DNA of 42,917 bases from the NCBI GenBank assembly GCA_013202295.1, contig JABMRT010000036.1, forward strand, positions 1-42,917, written 5' to 3'. The stretch is from Candidatus Zhuqueibacterota bacterium (lineage in GTDB: Bacteria; Zhuqueibacterota; QNDG01; JABMRT01). The position numbers were made by a program, and so were the translations under genes. Positions 21,704 through 28,749 of this stretch are shown here, one piece after another. Position 1 is the first letter of the stretch. The number at the start of each line of letters is the position of its first letter. A model generated the notes under the pieces. That model saw nothing but the letters and a program-made list of their open reading frames with translations, was not told the origin of the DNA and searched no databases.

Positions 21704-22030
21704 TCAATTGGATTCATCTTCCACCAGAACGGCTGTACCATACGCGAGCAGTTCGGAAGCCCCATTCATAATCTCGGATGTACTGAATTGTATTCCCACA
21801 ATGGCATTGGCCCCCAGACGCTTTGCATCATCCACCATCCGGTCGAGTGCCTGTTCGCGCGATTCACCCATCAGTTTCGTGTATTCACTCACCTCACCTC
21901 CAACCAGATTTTTCAATCCGGCCATGATATCCATGCCGACATGCAGCGCACGGATGGTGTTTCCATGCACCAGGCCCAGATTCTTTACAATCCGTTTGCC
22001 ATGTATTTGTGCTGTGGTTGCCAGAATCAT
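21704..22030 (-). CDS. ybjQ: YbjQ/UPF0145 family protein
   Basis: The 108-residue protein has the family core: MILATTAQIHGKRI, LGLVHGNTIRA, the long helix with DDAKRLGANAIVGIQFSTSEI, and AYGTAVLVE at the end. The family forms small cytoplasmic beta-sandwich oligomers, often annotated as heavy-metal-binding; biochemical function is unproven. Its start overlaps the anti-sigma stop (ATGA) and has AAGGAGG upstream. Confidence 0.93.
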   Translation of the reverse strand: MILATTAQIHGKRIVKNLGLVHGNTIRALHVGMDIMAGLKNLVGGEVSEYTKLMGESREQALDRMVDDAKRLGANAIVGIQFSTSEIMNGASELLAYGTAVLVEDESN

Positions 22031-22464
22031 CGCACAACCTCCTTATATGGATCCACTTTGTATTTAACCATGCGTTCACGGATTGCATTACACAAAAGAA
22101 TGACAAATCCGAAGGCCATGACCGCGATTCCAATCCGGGGCAGCAAGTTGCCAGAACTTTTCACAATCCACTCGTAAAGAATGTAAAGGATCAATCCGAC
22201 CCAACCGGCGATCACCATAGCCAATCCTGAAAGCCGGGTAAAATGGCTGTAGGGTGGATTCCAGAGAGTCTCGAGGATTTCATCGCCTGGTTCTTTGAAG
22301 GAGACCGCCCCGATCTTTGCGCTGGTCTCGCGCAGTGATTCGTAATCGGCCCGGCACTTTGCGCACCGGTTCAAATGTTGATTGACATCGACCGCTTCCT
22401 CAGGTGTCAATTCCTGATCGATCAACCCCATCAACAGCGGTTTGTATTTCTCACATTCACCCAT
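22027..22464 (-). CDS. zinc-finger anti-sigma factor (ZAS type)
   Basis: From the ATG at 22464 (GAGGTGA upstream) the product has 145 residues. The N-terminal anti-sigma domain has the zinc motif H30-x3-C34-x2-C37 (HLNRCAKC). Two hydrophobic segments follow (AMVIAGWVGLILYILYEWIV and IGIAVMAFGFVILLCNAI), so it is membrane-bound. It begins 4 bases after the ECF sigma gene, the usual sigma/anti-sigma pair. ZAS motifs often sense thiol or redox stress through the Cys pair. Confidence 0.92.
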   Translation of the reverse strand: MGECEKYKPLLMGLIDQELTPEEAVDVNQHLNRCAKCRADYESLRETSAKIGAVSFKEPGDEILETLWNPPYSHFTRLSGLAMVIAGWVGLILYILYEWIVKSSGNLLPRIGIAVMAFGFVILLCNAIRERMVKYKVDPYKEVVR

Positions 22465-22468
22465 AAGA

Positions 22469-23035
22469 TCACCTCGTTTCCGCATGGGATGTTTCAACCG
22501 CGACAAACGCATCTTTAAACGCCTTGCGCGCGTAGTACAGCCTGCTCATCACCGTACCGCGCGGAATGCTCAAAAGCGCCGCGATCTCTTCGTAATTGTT
22601 GTCTTTGATGTACTTCATAATTAGTATTTCCCTGAATTCTGGATTCAATGTCTCAAGCACTTCCCAAACCAGTTCTTTTTCTTCGGATCTTTCAAGAAGG
22701 GACGACGGATTTTCTGTTTCGACATGAAGTTCCGGATCGGCCTTTTGATACGTTCGATATTTCCGTGCTGTTTTTTTCCTGCTGAGCATATTAAGACAGC
22801 AGTTCCGAAGGATGCGATAAAACCAGGGATAAAATTGATCGAGCGCTTTCAGCCGCGGCATTGCCGCGAACGCCCGTGAGAAGGATTCCTGACAAGCGTC
22901 CGCCGCGTCTTCCTGATTACCCAGGAGTGTGACCGCGTGAAAGAACGCTTCTCTCCGGTATTTTTCAACAAGAAATTCGAATCCGGTCGGATCTTTATGA
23001 CTTAAACAGAGATTTATGGCTGAAGCTTCGTCCAT
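22469..23035 (-). CDS. ECF-family RNA polymerase sigma factor (SigW/RpoE type)
   Basis: The 188-residue protein has sigma region 2 at about 18-90 (FEFLVEKYRREAFFHAVTLL, EDAADACQESFSRAF, YPWFYRILRNCCLNMLSR) and region 4 at about 125-180 (LNPEFREILIMKYI, NYEEIAALLSIPRGTVMSRLYYARKAF, with the helix-turn-helix). It heads an operon with anti-sigma, ybjQ, glycine-zipper, nfeD and SPFH genes, so its regulon probably includes this membrane-protection set, as for SigW-type factors. No sure autoregulated promoter motif was seen upstream. Confidence 0.95.
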   Translation of the reverse strand: MDEASAINLCLSHKDPTGFEFLVEKYRREAFFHAVTLLGNQEDAADACQESFSRAFAAMPRLKALDQFYPWFYRILRNCCLNMLSRKKTARKYRTYQKADPELHVETENPSSLLERSEEKELVWEVLETLNPEFREILIMKYIKDNNYEEIAALLSIPRGTVMSRLYYARKAFKDAFVAVETSHAETR

Positions 23036-23156
23036 TGAGGTCCTCGGGTTCCATGGATCTGTTTGATAATATAAACAGAAATGAAACTAAAATATTCAAC
23101 TTTTTTATACGGTACGGATTTATTTATTGATGCATCACTTTAAAATCTCTTTTATA

Positions 23157-23184
23157 GTAAGGGCATCCGGCCGGACGCCCCTAC
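23157..23184. repeat. REP-like palindrome
   Basis: GTAAGGGCATCCGG followed by CCGGACGCCCCTAC, an imperfect palindrome. Its mirror form occurs at 26957-26984 downstream of the RAYT gene, so the two belong to one interspersed family. Confidence 0.8.
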
Positions 23185-23274
23185 AGTAAACCCGATTGGA
23201 TTTCAAAATTAGCATTCATCTCTCATCTTTCCCCATTCCACCTTCCCCGTTAACCGGTTTTCTTAAAAAAAACC

Positions 23275-23325
23275 TTGACTTTTAAAGATTACTTTTGTAA
23301 TCTTGCAATGTATTACAACTGTAAT
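23275..23325 (+). promoter_or_regulatory. blaI promoter with two BlaI-type operators
   Basis: TTGACT (23275-23280), 17 bases, TAATCT (23298-23303) form the promoter. Operator 1, AGATTACTTTTGTAATCT (23286-23303), covers the spacer and -10. Operator 2, ATTACAACTGTAAT (23312-23325), follows directly. Both share ATTAC-N4-GTAAT, and operator 2 includes TACA-N2-TGTA, the known BlaI/MecI half-site pattern. This predicts autorepression of the blaI/M56 operon. Confidence 0.85.
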
Positions 23326-23345: not shown

Positions 23346-23726
23346 ATGACCCAATCGTTACCGAAAATTGCCGACTCAGAATGGCGCATCATGAAACTGT
23401 TGTGGAAGAAATCTCCTCAAACCGCTGCTGAAATCATCGACAAACTCGAAAGCGATGTGGACTGGACTCCCAAAACTATTAAGACCCTTCTCAATCGGTT
23501 GACCGGAAAGGGCGCGCTGGGTTTTGATAAGGACGGCCGCACCTATCTTTATTTTCCGAAAATCAGTGAAGCGGAATGCAAACGCGAAGAAACCAAAACT
23601 TTCGTGAATCGGGTTTTCGACGGCGCGCTCAAACCCATGCTCGCGGCATTTTTAGAGGACGGCAAACTCACTCCCGAAGAACTCGACGAACTTCGGAAAA
23701 TCCTTGAACAGGAAAAAGGAGACTGA
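23346..23726 (+). CDS. BlaI/MecI-family repressor
   Basis: The 126-residue protein has the penicillinase-repressor family length. The winged helix is at about 8-75 (SEWRIMKLLWKKSPQTAAEIIDKL, WTPKTIKTLLNRLTGKGALGFDKDGRTYLYFP), then the C-terminal dimerisation helices (about 80-126), which contain the region cut by BlaR1-type proteases in characterised systems. A GAGGA site precedes the start. The two palindromes upstream are its likely operators. It is followed 2 bases later by the M56 fusion gene. Confidence 0.95.
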   Translation: MTQSLPKIADSEWRIMKLLWKKSPQTAAEIIDKLESDVDWTPKTIKTLLNRLTGKGALGFDKDGRTYLYFPKISEAECKREETKTFVNRVFDGALKPMLAAFLEDGKLTPEELDELRKILEQEKGD

Positions 23727-23728
23727 TC

Positions 23729-26234
23729 ATGGCTCTCCATGAAACAGTTTTGTCCCTCACCCATTGGGTCTTTGTCAATTCGCTCAAAGCCAGCATTCTC
23801 CATCGGATTGATCTTCACTATCCAGTGGATTGTGCGCGGACGCTTGCCCGCTAAATGGCAACACACACTATGGCTCATCCTCATCGTACGCTTACTTTTA
23901 CCGTCTGGATTAGAAAGCAACTTGAGTCTGTATAATCTGTTTAATCGGTCGGACGGAGCCCTTGAAACCACAACCCGCATCATCAATCAGCCCATTTGGA
24001 TAGAAGCGAATACGATGGATGGTGAACCTGTCACTGAGACTGAATCCTCAAGGCAAATCAGCATCGTGGATATTTTCTCGGCGATCTGGATTCTCGGCAC
24101 GCTCACATTTGCCTTGATCACTCTAATAGCAAACATGAAATGCTGGATGAGAATCCGGAGCCGCAGACCCATTTCGGACAAACAAACACTTCAATGTTTT
24201 CATGAATGTCAACAACGCATGCAAATCCGTCAATCGGTTCAGCTTGCCAAATTGGATTCCATCCAAATCCCCATGCTCTATAGATGGCTCAAACCCGTTA
24301 TCCTTCTCCCTTCTTCACAAATCAGTAAATGGACACCCGATCAATTCAAGCACATTGTCTGTCACGAACTGGCCCATCACAAACGACGGGACATTCTTGT
24401 CGCTCATCTCACAACAATCCTGCAAATCTTACACTGGTTCAATCCACTCATGTGGCTTGCTTTTTATAAAATCCGGCTGGATCGTGAAGTCGCCTGCGAT
24501 GCAATCGCCCTGAACCATCTGGGGCGTGATCAATCCAAATCATATGGATCAACCATTCTCTCACTTCTTGAAAACATTTCATCAGAAAACCTGCTCCCCA
24601 TGACTGTTGGAATCGTAGAATCGAAAAAGAACCTGAAACGAAGGCTAACCTCCATTGCCAAATTCAAAAAACCGAAACTGATGTGGACATTGATCGGAGT
24701 ACTCATCGCACTCACTACAGGTTTAATTGTATTAACAGAAGCTAAAAAGGACAAACTAGACTCCATTTCAAACGAGAACAATTTAAACGTAGATGATAGT
24801 GCAGATATATTCAATACTGACGATCAATCCTTCTCAAACTTCACACAAAATTTAATTTCCTCACCAGTAGTCAGTTTTAGAGAGAATGGAAAAACAGGAT
24901 TAAAAGACCATGATGGTAATATTATCCTTGAACCAGAAATTGCCAACATCGGACTTTTCTCTGAGGGTCTTGCACTTTATGCCACCCCCACAGGTATTTT
25001 TAATACAGTGGCAAATATTCTCCCAAGGAAATTGGATTATACAAGGAGCTTAGCAAAATGGAAGTGTGGTTTCATCGATCAGAAGGGGAATATTGTTATT
25101 AAACCTCAGTACGACTGGGCAGGCATGTTTCATGAGGGTCTGGCACCAGTTAAAATAAATGACAAGTTCGGTTACATTAATAAATCAGGTGAATTAGTCA
25201 TTGATTTTCAATACGATTCTGCTGACCTCTTTTTTAACGGCCTTGCAGCTGTCCAGAAGAATGATAAAACAGGTTATATTGATGAGCAAGGAAAAGTCAT
25301 TATTCCATTCATTTATGAAAAAGGGAAATCTTTCTCTGAAGGACTTGCGCCTGTAATGCAGAATCTAAAATGGGGGTTCATCAATAAAACGGGTGAGTTT
25401 GTTATCACACCACAATTTAAGCAGATTGGTCATTTTTCAGAAGGCTTTGCTCGTTTTTTAGGTGACAATGAAAAATGGGGTTTTATTAATAAATCTGGTG
25501 AAGTCGCCATTCAGCCACAATACGAATGGATATTAACAGATTTCTCCGATGGGACAGCACGAGTAATTAGTGAAGACGGTACAATCGATATTAAAGGTGA
25601 CCATCATACCCGAATTGATAACAATGGTAATATGTATAGCACTACAATGAAAATAAATTCCAATACTAGTGAATTGCAACAAACAGGGTACACCATCATC
25701 CTCGACCCGGGGCATGGAGGAAGAGACCCAGGTGGAAAAACAACAGAGGATCGAATGGAAAAAGACATGACCCTTGAAATCTGCACCAAACTCGCACGAA
25801 CTCTGGAAGCCAATGGTATGCACGTTCAAATGACAAGGGCAACAGATTCATTTATATCATTAGAAGATCGAGGAAAAATAATAAATGATGCTGATGCGGA
25901 TATAGCGCTTTCCATTCATGTCAACAACAATAGAGATACAACAAAACATGGTATTTGCTTTTATCATCATCAGGAAAATGACAACAGCAGCACCTTGTGC
26001 GATGCCCTTCAAAATGCATTACAAGACAATATTTGGATGGATGTAAATAAAATTTACACAGCCGGATTTTATCTCTCCCGTATAGCTGAAATACCAGTTT
26101 CATACATCGAACTCGGCTATATGACCAGTTCACAAGACCTCGAAACATTGTCCAATCCCGAATTCATCGATGATTGCTGTGAGCGTATTTCAACCGCTGT
26201 TTTGGCATTTCTCGAAAATGAATCGGAGGGGTAG
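23729..26234 (+). CDS. BlaR1-like M56 metallopeptidase fused to WG repeats and an N-acetylmuramoyl-L-alanine amidase; apparent +1 frameshift near 23801
   Basis: Positions below are numbered in the main frame from the ATG at 23739 (831 residues). M56 part, about 20-340: transmembrane segments LWLILIVRLLLP, FSAIWILGTLTFALITLIA and LMWTLIGVLIALTTGLIVL; zinc protease motif HELAHHKRRD (H209, E210, H213) and DREVACD. About 385-630: WG (KWG) repeats such as GFIDQKGNIVIKPQYD, GYINKSGELVIDFQY, GFINKTGEFVITPQF, at least five. About 650-831: Amidase_3 with zinc ligands H659 (DPGHGG), E674 and H727 (SIHVN) and catalytic E791 (YIELGY), all present. The topology puts the WG and amidase parts outside the cytoplasm. 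The ribosome site AAGGAG is placed for the ATG at 23729, whose frame gives the family-like MALHETVLSLTHWVFVNSLKASIL and then stops at 23854. An extra C at 23800/23801 separates it from the main frame (IGLIFTIQWIVRGRLPAKW). It is an inactive allele, a sequencing error or a recoding site. Confidence 0.88.
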
Positions 26235-26242
26235 AGGTTTCT

Positions 26243-26271
26243 GTAGGGGCGGATTCCAAATCCGCCCTTAC
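26243..26271. repeat. REP-like palindrome upstream of the RAYT gene
   Basis: GTAGGGGCGGATT, CCA, AATCCGCCCTTAC: nine-base perfect stem GGGCGGATT/AATCCGCCC with flanking GTA/TAC. A half copy (GAATCCGCCCC) lies at about 26302-26312. Confidence 0.8.
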
Positions 26272-26416
26272 AAGCGCCATAATTGAAATTGAACAGGTTT
26301 TGAATCCGCCCCAACATCAAATTTTATTTGACATTAAATATCGTATTTATTATAATTAAACACACCTCAGCACAAACAACATTGTACAAGTAATATAATT
26401 AGTCACTGTTGGCAAT

Positions 26417-26941
26417 ATGACATTCGATCCGGAAGTGCACAAACGCAAATCCATCCGACTGCGTGAATACGATTATTCTCAGCCTGGTGCATATTTCATC
26501 ACGCTTTGCACACATAATCGGCAATGTCTATTCGGCGAGGTTGTTGATGGTGAAATGCAGCTGAATGAATTGGGAGAGGTCGTGCAAAATTGTTGGGATG
26601 AGATACCGAATCATTATACAAATACTGAAACCGATGCATTCATAGTCATGCCAAATCATGTTCATGAAATTCTATTTATTAATAATAATGTAGGGACACG
26701 GCATGCCGTGTCCCTACGAAAATTTGGGAATCCAATTCCGAATTCATTATCAACAATCGTCGGTGGATTCAAATCCGCCGCAACACGCCGTATTAACCAA
26801 CAACGTAACACACCCAACACCCCCGTCTGGCAGCGCAACTTTTACGACCATATCATTCGTGACGAGGATGATTTATCAAATATTCGTGATTACATCGTAT
26901 ACAATGCCTTGAAATGGGAATCGGATAAATATTTTAAATAA
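26417..26941 (+). CDS. REP-associated tyrosine transposase (RAYT, IS200/IS605-like TnpA)
   Basis: The 174-residue product has the RAYT start (HKRKSIRLREYDYSQPGAYFITLCTHNRQCLFG). The metal-binding HUH motif is MPNHVHEI (H81, H83) and the catalytic tyrosine is in QRNFYDHIIRDE (Y143), ending DDLSNIRDYIVYNALKW. RAYTs are single-copy domesticated transposases thought to recognise and spread REP palindromes. The gene is flanked by palindromes at 26243 and 26957 and holds one inside (26690-26717). That internal palindrome encodes VGTRHAVSLR (residues 92-101), so it has become part of the protein without breaking the frame. Confidence 0.94.
   Translation: MTFDPEVHKRKSIRLREYDYSQPGAYFITLCTHNRQCLFGEVVDGEMQLNELGEVVQNCWDEIPNHYTNTETDAFIVMPNHVHEILFINNNVGTRHAVSLRKFGNPIPNSLSTIVGGFKSAATRRINQQRNTPNTPVWQRNFYDHIIRDEDDLSNIRDYIVYNALKWESDKYFK
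26690..26717. repeat. perfect 28-base palindrome inside the RAYT gene
   Basis: GTAGGGACACGGCA followed by its exact reverse complement TGCCGTGTCCCTAC. A degenerate relative (TAGGGACATGGTATGCCATG...) lies at 28757-28784. Confidence 0.95.
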
Positions 26942-26956
26942 CGATGAAATTGATCT

Positions 26957-26984
26957 GTAAGGGCGTCCGGCCGGATGCCCCCAC
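26957..26984. repeat. REP-like palindrome downstream of the RAYT gene
   Basis: GTAAGGGCGTCCGG followed by CCGGATGCCCCCAC; same family as 23157-23184. It lies 16 bases after the RAYT stop codon. Confidence 0.8.
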
Positions 26985-27018
26985 AATGCTCATTAATCAA
27001 ACAGTCGGAGGAAAAGCC

Positions 27019-28749
27019 ATGAAACAATTCCTGATTCTTACAACCGTATTGGTATGTATCCTGGCCGGATGCACGCTTGGACCTAAAACGATAACCCTGT
27101 CTGGAACCATCAAATTTGAAGGACACGATCCCGCAGGTACAATCTATGTCGGTTTATATCCTGAAGTCTATAACTATGGGAGAGAGGTCGGTGAGCCTAT
27201 AGAACTTCTCGAACTGGATAATCCGGAATTTACACTCCAGGTCAAACCGGGCCGTTACGGACTGGCTGTCTGGGCCTTTCCCTTTGAAAAATATCAAACC
27301 AATATTCTGATTCTTAAATCAGGAGAAAATATCCATTTTGATATCACCCTGCCTCATTATGGTTTGAGGCCGGAATACGATGGATATTGTGTAGTCGGTG
27401 CAATCAACAATTGGAGCGGCCCGGGTAAGCCCATGGTAAAACAGGGGGATAAATGGATTCTGCCCGATACATCCCTGATGCCTTTGAATGGCGTTTATAA
27501 ATTTTTCAGCGGAAATGAAGGTTTCCTGGATCTGGCAAAGACTGACCTTGAACTGGTCAAGGATTGGGCAAGTTTAAATAACATTTACAAGGGGGGGCCA
27601 GTTATTCTCGATCCGTCGCTCTATGAAGCAGAACCACGGGAAGCCACAGCGGAGATTCAGGGTGGTGAAACGACGATACGTTTTAACGCGTTGCGAGAGG
27701 CATTGGATAAGCTCTCAAATGAACAAGTGATGCCTGTTCTTCGCCAGATGAACACCCTTTCTGACAAAGAAAAAATAGCAACGTGGACGCGTTTGAATAA
27801 AACATTGGATTCGCTGGAAACCGCCAATCCTGATTTAAGTCAAATGGTTATCGAACAGCGGTTCGGCTATATCAGGCATCTGCATCCCCGTCAGGTGAAG
27901 CGCTCTGCATTGCTCAAGGCAAAGGCGGATGAAAGTGAAATGAACGCCTTTTATCAATCCGAAACCAATCGTGATTATTATCAATATTATCTGAACCTGG
28001 CAGACAAACTCGATCCGAAAAGCCTCTTGCTCGAAGGAGGGTTTGCACAGGTTTTCGTTGGATTCCAATCTGATCTGGACAAGATTCCTCAAACCGCAGA
28101 ACTCCTGAATGTGCCCTCTGATTACTTTGACAAGAAGCTTATGGATCTCATACAAAATAGTTCCGAACGCGTTGTTACCGGCGTCTGTATGACCGCAGGC
28201 TCCCAATATGCCTATATGGGCAAGGCAGATGCGGCCCGTGAATTCTTAACCAAGTTGAAGAGTGATTATCCAGACCATCGTTATGTAAAAGACGGTAATG
28301 TGGATCGTTACCTTAAGAGTCTTGCTATTAATGAGGGGAATAATGCCCCTGACTTCTCTATCACCACACTCACGGGGAATTCATTCAAGCTATCGGATCA
28401 AAAAGGCAAATTTGTGATGATCGACTTCTGGGGATCGTGGTGCGGCCCTTGTCGAGGTGAAGTGCCGAACTTTAAAAACCTATATACGACTATTCCACGC
28501 GATTCACTGATTCTTATAGGATTGGCAAATGACGATTCCACGGATCTCGTTCAGTTCATTGCGGAACAAAAGATTCCTTACCCCAATGCTCTTGCAACAG
28601 AGGACATTCTTAAAGCTTATGGTATCAACGCCTATCCAACCACACTGCTGATTGGACCTGATGGTAAAATAGCGGGAAAGAATTTACGTGGAGAATCTGT
28701 CATTGATCAGGTACGAGAGAAAATGAAAATGTATAAGGAATCAGCCTAA
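27019..28749 (+). CDS. thioredoxin-like (TlpA/ResA) lipoprotein with long N-terminal region
   Basis: The start chosen is the ATG at 27019 with GGAGG 8 bases upstream; the frame opens earlier at 26944 within the REP repeat. The 576-residue product has a lipoprotein signal (lipobox ILAGC). About 30-120: a beta-sandwich-like region (SGTIKFEGHDPAGTIYVGLYP). About 125-200: YCVVGAINNWSGPGKPM and GVYKFFSGNEGFLDL, resembling a carbohydrate-binding (CBM48/glycogen-binding-like) sandwich. About 205-430: helical. About 435-576: thioredoxin fold with the active site WCGPC (C475, C478) and the cis-proline region INAYPTTLL. It is likely a periplasmic membrane-attached thiol reductase as in many FCB bacteria. 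It may read from the upstream RAYT region; no neighbours hint at its client. Confidence 0.9.
   Translation: MKQFLILTTVLVCILAGCTLGPKTITLSGTIKFEGHDPAGTIYVGLYPEVYNYGREVGEPIELLELDNPEFTLQVKPGRYGLAVWAFPFEKYQTNILILKSGENIHFDITLPHYGLRPEYDGYCVVGAINNWSGPGKPMVKQGDKWILPDTSLMPLNGVYKFFSGNEGFLDLAKTDLELVKDWASLNNIYKGGPVILDPSLYEAEPREATAEIQGGETTIRFNALREALDKLSNEQVMPVLRQMNTLSDKEKIATWTRLNKTLDSLETANPDLSQMVIEQRFGYIRHLHPRQVKRSALLKAKADESEMNAFYQSETNRDYYQYYLNLADKLDPKSLLLEGGFAQVFVGFQSDLDKIPQTAELLNVPSDYFDKKLMDLIQNSSERVVTGVCMTAGSQYAYMGKADAAREFLTKLKSDYPDHRYVKDGNVDRYLKSLAINEGNNAPDFSITTLTGNSFKLSDQKGKFVMIDFWGSWCGPCRGEVPNFKNLYTTIPRDSLILIGLANDDSTDLVQFIAEQKIPYPNALATEDILKAYGINAYPTTLLIGPDGKIAGKNLRGESVIDQVREKMKMYKESA

Follow-up and report, generated by a model that had tools for sequence, protein, structure and literature searches.

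The window analysed here, a stretch of 42,917 nucleotides that forms one entire contig of a bacterial assembly of 5.15 Mb in 303 contigs, carries an operon that, judged from its sequence, is a rare variant of the BlaI/M56 switch, with an exact domain order retrieved in one genome. The predicted domains, the intact residues of the putative zinc site, the arrangement of promoter and candidate operators and the linkage of the two genes are read directly in the DNA. We give about even chances to the interpretation of this operon as a regulated-proteolysis switch of the BlaI/BlaR1 type, in which the penicillin sensor would be replaced by a WG domain and a CwlD/LytH-like amidase on a flexible tether, the amidase acting as the output of the switch.

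Most of what is known of BlaR1-type signalling comes from beta-lactam resistance. The present locus and its relatives display a single protease-repressor core wired to TonB ends, endopeptidases, an amidase or WG repeats, and constitute a natural set for asking how any outer module drives an M56 protease and whether cell-wall hydrolases can feed signals into a transcription switch or be built into it as outputs.

Organization of the operon and its promoter

The first gene, blaI (23346-23726, + strand), encodes a repressor of 126 amino acids of the Penicillinase_R family (Pfam E-value 2.2e-36), which aligns with MecI (1sd6/1okr) over its whole length (E-value 8.5e-25). Its residue 102 is a phenylalanine that coincides in the alignment with the P1' Phe at the site where MecI/BlaI is cleaved, a position that is almost invariant in BlaI (PMC9834060). 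The receptor gene (23729-26234, + strand), delineated from Pfam and from comparison with the L128 locus of G061, a genome from another family of the phylum, begins three bases past the blaI stop codon and encodes successively an M56 protease, a last membrane helix, WG repeats and an Amidase_3 domain, the three Pfam families scoring well above their curated thresholds.

The original prediction relied on the open reading frame as read (23739-26234), which opens at an ATG in 23739 and encodes 831 amino acids; its domain content stands, while its start has to be given up in favour of the better ATG in 23729 and in view of a frame slip near 23800. An AAGGAG motif lies 7 bases upstream of ATG 23729, and the N-terminus read in this frame, MALHETVLSLTHWVFVNSLKASIL, matches that of the L128 receptor, ...SRWIFTNSLKASVL, until the match is lost near 23800. 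Past this point the match resumes in the frame of 23739 (IGLIFTIQWIV, against IFLILFIQWLV in L128), so that ...THWVFVNSLKASIL from the first frame, continued by the second, gives a combined match to SRWIFTNSLKASVLIFLILFIQWLV of the orthologue. The assembled receptor gene thus contains, as deduced from this comparison, a one-base frame slip within the first membrane helix, and its start is probably ATG 23729; consequently, the first ~18 residues of the 831-residue frame are out of frame and do not represent the real N-terminus. One-base slips are observed in the receptor gene at three of the four blaI-M56 loci of this genome, namely in the window (23729-23805) and on contigs 50 and 82 (L133:5200-5420 and L134:4800-5020), and may reflect sequencing or assembly errors, a mixture of strains or real inactivation.

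A promoter of the sigma-70 type, TTGACT-17 bases-TAATCT (23275-23303, + strand), is present ahead of blaI; it was read in the sequence and was not listed by a generic promoter scan. Two exact copies of ATTACN4GTAAT, with no strand assigned, are superimposed on it: operator 1, ATTACTTTTGTAAT (23288-23301), covers the spacer and the -10 element, and operator 2, ATTACAACTGTAAT (23312-23325), is located 24 bases downstream of operator 1, around the expected transcript start. In L128, the TTGACT and TAATCT hexamers and almost the whole spacer are identical to those of the window, operator 1 is identical, operator 2 differs by one base and the 24-base spacing is retained. Operators overlapping the promoter are thus conserved between two families of the phylum, which provides strong evidence for an autoregulation of the blaI operon by these predicted sites.

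The release of BlaI-repressed genes beyond the operon, as originally proposed, found no such backing. Exact ATTACN4GTAAT sites number 10 in the 5.15 Mb of the genome, near the ~5 expected by chance at equal base frequencies; two of them form the promoter of the operon itself, the sole convincing promoter site, and most of the others fall inside genes. No convincing second BlaI promoter target was found among these 10 sites, which represent one form of the operator in an incomplete assembly of 303 contigs. Within the limits set by this incompleteness and by the simplicity of the motif, the BlaI regulon would appear to consist of a single operon.

Membrane protease, WG domain and amidase

The Peptidase_M56 domain (residues 21-306; 23799-24656, + strand; Pfam E-value 1.4e-58) contains, between membrane helices, both gluzincin motifs, H209ELAH (24363-24377) and E250VACD (ExxxD, residues 250-254), and aligns with the Staphylococcus aureus BlaR1 structures (8exp) over residues 24-333 (E-value 8.8e-20). 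Pfam, the alignments to solved MecI and BlaR1 and the HEXXH and EXXXD motifs all agree with the earlier identification of a BlaI repressor paired with a BlaR1-type protease. The NCBIfam model blaR1_generic scores 209 bits, below its cut-off of 400, and covers residues 19-364 alone. A last membrane helix, LMWTLIGVLIALTTGLIVL (24678-24734, + strand), was delineated from hydropathy. The C-terminal part of BlaR1 lies outside the cytoplasm and its M56 site faces inward (PMC9834060); by analogy, the C-terminal part of the present receptor would also be located outside the cytoplasm. Neither a penicillin-binding (class D-like) sensor domain nor an M23 domain was found by Pfam in the receptor of the window, WG repeats and Amidase_3 occupying this place. 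The proposed replacement of the penicillin sensor by WG repeats and an amidase with all its active-site residues is therefore confirmed by Pfam and by a check of the motifs.

The WG-repeat domain (24876-25600, + strand; Pfam E-value 2e-67) comprises six Pfam-scored repeats of ~34 residues, which also form a repeat family at the DNA level, and reaches 223 bits with PF14903 for a Pfam cut-off of 25.6. Its structural model is beta-rich, with moderate confidence, too weak to name a fold, and no sequence relative of this domain was found in the PDB. It is followed by a linker of ~48 residues (25533-25676, + strand), predicted to be disordered (pLDDT mostly below 50), and by the Amidase_3 domain (residues 653-821; 25695-26201, + strand; Pfam E-value 1.7e-39). 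The four key residues of the amidase, H659 (25713), E674 (25758), H727 (25917) and E791 (26109), all encoded on the + strand, had been correctly positioned and are invariant in an alignment of 28 sequences, that of the window and 27 other amidases.

An amidase profile search in IMG/VR gave ordinary viral amidases, whereas querying IMG/VR directly with the sequence of the amidase or of the WG part gave no match. The alignment of 27 of these viral amidases was used to build a model of residues 370-831. The amidase part of this model (pLDDT ~95) superimposes on solved amidases at 1.4-1.7 Å, with a TM-score of 0.91 to 4rn7 and 0.93 to LytH (7tj4). AmiB and AmiC carry a regulatory insert, for which the present domain, with 169 residues on the 174-position Pfam model, is too short to leave room. 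A CwlD/LytH-like N-acetylmuramoyl-L-alanine amidase, with the predicted zinc-site residues intact, is the best explanation for this domain. It shares with LytH, CwlD (7rag) and 4rn7 the Amidase_3 fold and the zinc and catalytic residues (TM-score 0.83-0.93 over the three structures), but in these enzymes the amidase is linked to neither a protease-receptor nor WG repeats.

Relatives and exchange of the outer modules

The orthologous locus of G061 encodes a BlaI 72% identical and an M56 domain 53% identical to those of the window. Contig 190 of this genome ends within the receptor gene and shares its terminal 87 bases with the start of contig 170 (L128 continued by L378), an overlap which makes the C-terminus of the orthologue readable. 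It contains seven WG stretches followed by ~300 residues with no amidase, where TonB_C gives a sub-threshold match of 17.2 bits. The M56-WG architecture is thus common to two families of the phylum, and the amidase is particular to the genome of the window among all those searched. The original prediction had made the occurrence of the same order elsewhere a check against an assembly join: the M56-WG junction passes this check with the second genome, and no second case was found for the WG-amidase junction. As the sole orthologue found is devoid of the amidase, a conserved sensor function of this domain is not supported.

In the 82 phylum genomes searched, 94 distinct M56 open reading frames were recovered, 85 of which have blaI directly upstream, in line with the expected conservation of blaI beside the receptor. 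Considering the 25 commonest families matched behind M56, the regions of 84 members contain TonB_C (36/84), Peptidase_M23 (19/84), carboxypeptidase-regulatory folds (12/84) or GyrI-like domains (10/84), WG repeats being present in two, the window and G061, and Amidase_3 in the window alone. ExbD, HEAT, GyrI-like or thioredoxin modules were also matched in some of these 84 regions. A search of the fetched open reading frames with the amidase of the window did not reveal a second M56-amidase fusion. The M23 motifs HxGxD and HLH are intact in 14 of the 19 M56-M23 proteins. The genome of the window itself encodes, on contig 142 (L132:4317-6303), a second blaI followed by an M56-M23 receptor with intact HRGVD and HLHF. 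Exchange of the outer module is therefore normal among the M56 receptors of this phylum while M56 and BlaI stay, and a cell-wall hydrolase behind M56 is a recurring theme rather than a single oddity.

In 84,980 species genomes, searched by means of back-translated peptides, 207 M56 relatives were retrieved, and the 80 retained among them include no clear WG or amidase fusion; one of them, L074, has a weak single WG match at its C-terminus. Among ~850 whole genomes (own phylum, other relatives and two other phyla), no M56-WG protein was found outside the genome of the window and G061, a search in which part of the genomes were represented by two scored candidates each and distant cases could be missed. 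Neither an M56-WG nor an M56-Amidase_3 receptor was found described in the literature searched, and the same holds for an extensive exchange of the outer modules of BlaR1. In a review of M23 enzymes, M23 with M56 figures among the combinations with other catalytic domains, which account for less than 1% of the hits (PMC9662197). The claim of an undescribed architecture consequently holds for the exact M56-WG-amidase order and does not extend to a wholly new kind of system, since M56-M23 proteins recur and are in print.

These M56-M23 fusions (PMC9662197; L132:4603-6303) resemble the receptor of the window by the adjoining BlaI, the M56 domain and an extracytoplasmic C-terminal peptidoglycan hydrolase, but they contain an M23 endopeptidase instead of Amidase_3, are devoid of WG repeats and are non-orthologous beyond M56 and BlaI. 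The BlaI-BlaR1 and MecI-MecR1 systems of Staphylococcus and Bacillus (PMC9834060, PMC3305447) share several features with the window: their repressor belongs to the same family and has the Phe of the cleavage site, their M56 protease has the HEXXH and EXXXD motifs and is followed by the last membrane helix, their promoter carries palindromic operators, and the repressor and receptor genes are adjacent. Conversely, in the window blaI comes first, the place of the penicillin-binding sensor is taken by the WG repeats and amidase, and no beta-lactamase or PBP2a target was seen.

Putative switch, alternative readings and neighbouring genes

In the proposed switch, BlaI would occupy the two operators and hold its own operon low. 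An envelope signal would act on the extracytoplasmic part of the receptor, most likely on the WG domain, which is favoured as the sensing part because the orthologue keeps it, and would thereby activate the cytoplasm-facing M56 protease. The latter would cut BlaI before Phe102, leading to expression of the operon, and the amidase would be a membrane-tethered output trimming peptidoglycan near the inner membrane, its engagement with the wall possibly feeding back on signalling. Since no convincing second BlaI target was detected, the main product of induction would be the receptor itself, and the amidase is best seen as an output. This reading is supported by the alignment of M56 and BlaI to solved BlaR1 and MecI, the retention of Phe102, the conserved operators, the position of blaI directly upstream of most M56 genes of the phylum, the exchange of C-terminal modules around a constant M56 and BlaI, and the fit of the amidase model to solved amidases; it is weakened by the restriction of the amidase to one genome, its absence from the orthologue and the one-base slip in the first membrane helix.

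The main rival, in which binding or cutting of peptidoglycan by the amidase would report the state of the wall to M56, which would then take BlaI off wall-related genes, corresponds to the original prediction and appears to us possible and rather unlikely. The amidase sits where the penicillin sensor does in BlaR1, and hydrolase modules recur at that place in the phylum, as illustrated by the 19 M23 proteins among 84. However, the disordered linker of ~48 residues would transmit strain poorly; moreover, a BlaI regulon beyond the operon was not detected, and the orthologue retains the WG repeats and not the amidase. A more speculative extension, to which we attach little probability, builds on the dipeptide gamma-D-Glu-mDAP, which in Bacillus licheniformis acts as a co-inducer by binding to BlaI (PMC3305447): stem peptides freed by the amidase could be processed into products that bind BlaI and lock the switch on, so that the receptor would make its own co-inducer. 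If true, one and the same protein would serve as receptor, cut the wall and produce the chemical signal.

The frame slip raises the question of a gene that is real but dead as a receptor. If the slip is a true mutation, BlaI alone, or a truncated product from 23739, would be made, and the frame of ATG 23729 indeed reaches a stop soon after the slip; similar slips affect two of the three other blaI-M56 loci of the genome, though the long open reading frames of the window are intact. We regard this situation as improbable, considering that more than 800 codons remain open downstream of the slip with every catalytic residue retained, which argues for recent use, and that errors of one base often arise in sequencing or assembly as well. 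An amidase end brought in by an assembly join, outside the real gene, seems very unlikely: even if the M56-WG-amidase order was retrieved in no other genome searched and the C-terminus of the orthologue differs, the junction is in frame, the amidase part has neither a start nor a signal peptide of its own, the exchange of C-terminal modules is the rule among these M56 receptors and a second genome bears out the M56-WG part. The homology of BlaI and M56 would also fit an ordinary beta-lactam-responsive BlaR1/BlaI system, an option that is hardly credible for a protein with no penicillin-binding sensor and with no beta-lactamase-like protein among the neighbours examined. A direct beta-lactam sensor is refuted by the absence of this sensor domain.

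The vicinity of the operon displays several other features. The - strand (22027-23035) encodes an ECF sigma factor together with a zinc-finger membrane protein that is likely an anti-sigma factor, divergently from blaI and ~310 bases away from it. Just downstream of the receptor gene, a Y1 (IS200-like) transposase gene (26417-26941) is preceded by a perfect TTGACA-17-TATAAT promoter (26328), and palindromes of the GTAGGGGC/GCCCCTAC type are located around and within it (23154-23197, 26242-26316, 26690-26717 and 26955-26987), an ensemble suggestive of a REP-associated transposase (RAYT) accompanied by its repeats. The transposase gene is followed by a gene (26944-28749) whose product has a TlpA-like thioredoxin domain at its C-terminus; in G061, the M56 protein of L129 carries a comparable redoxin module as a fusion.
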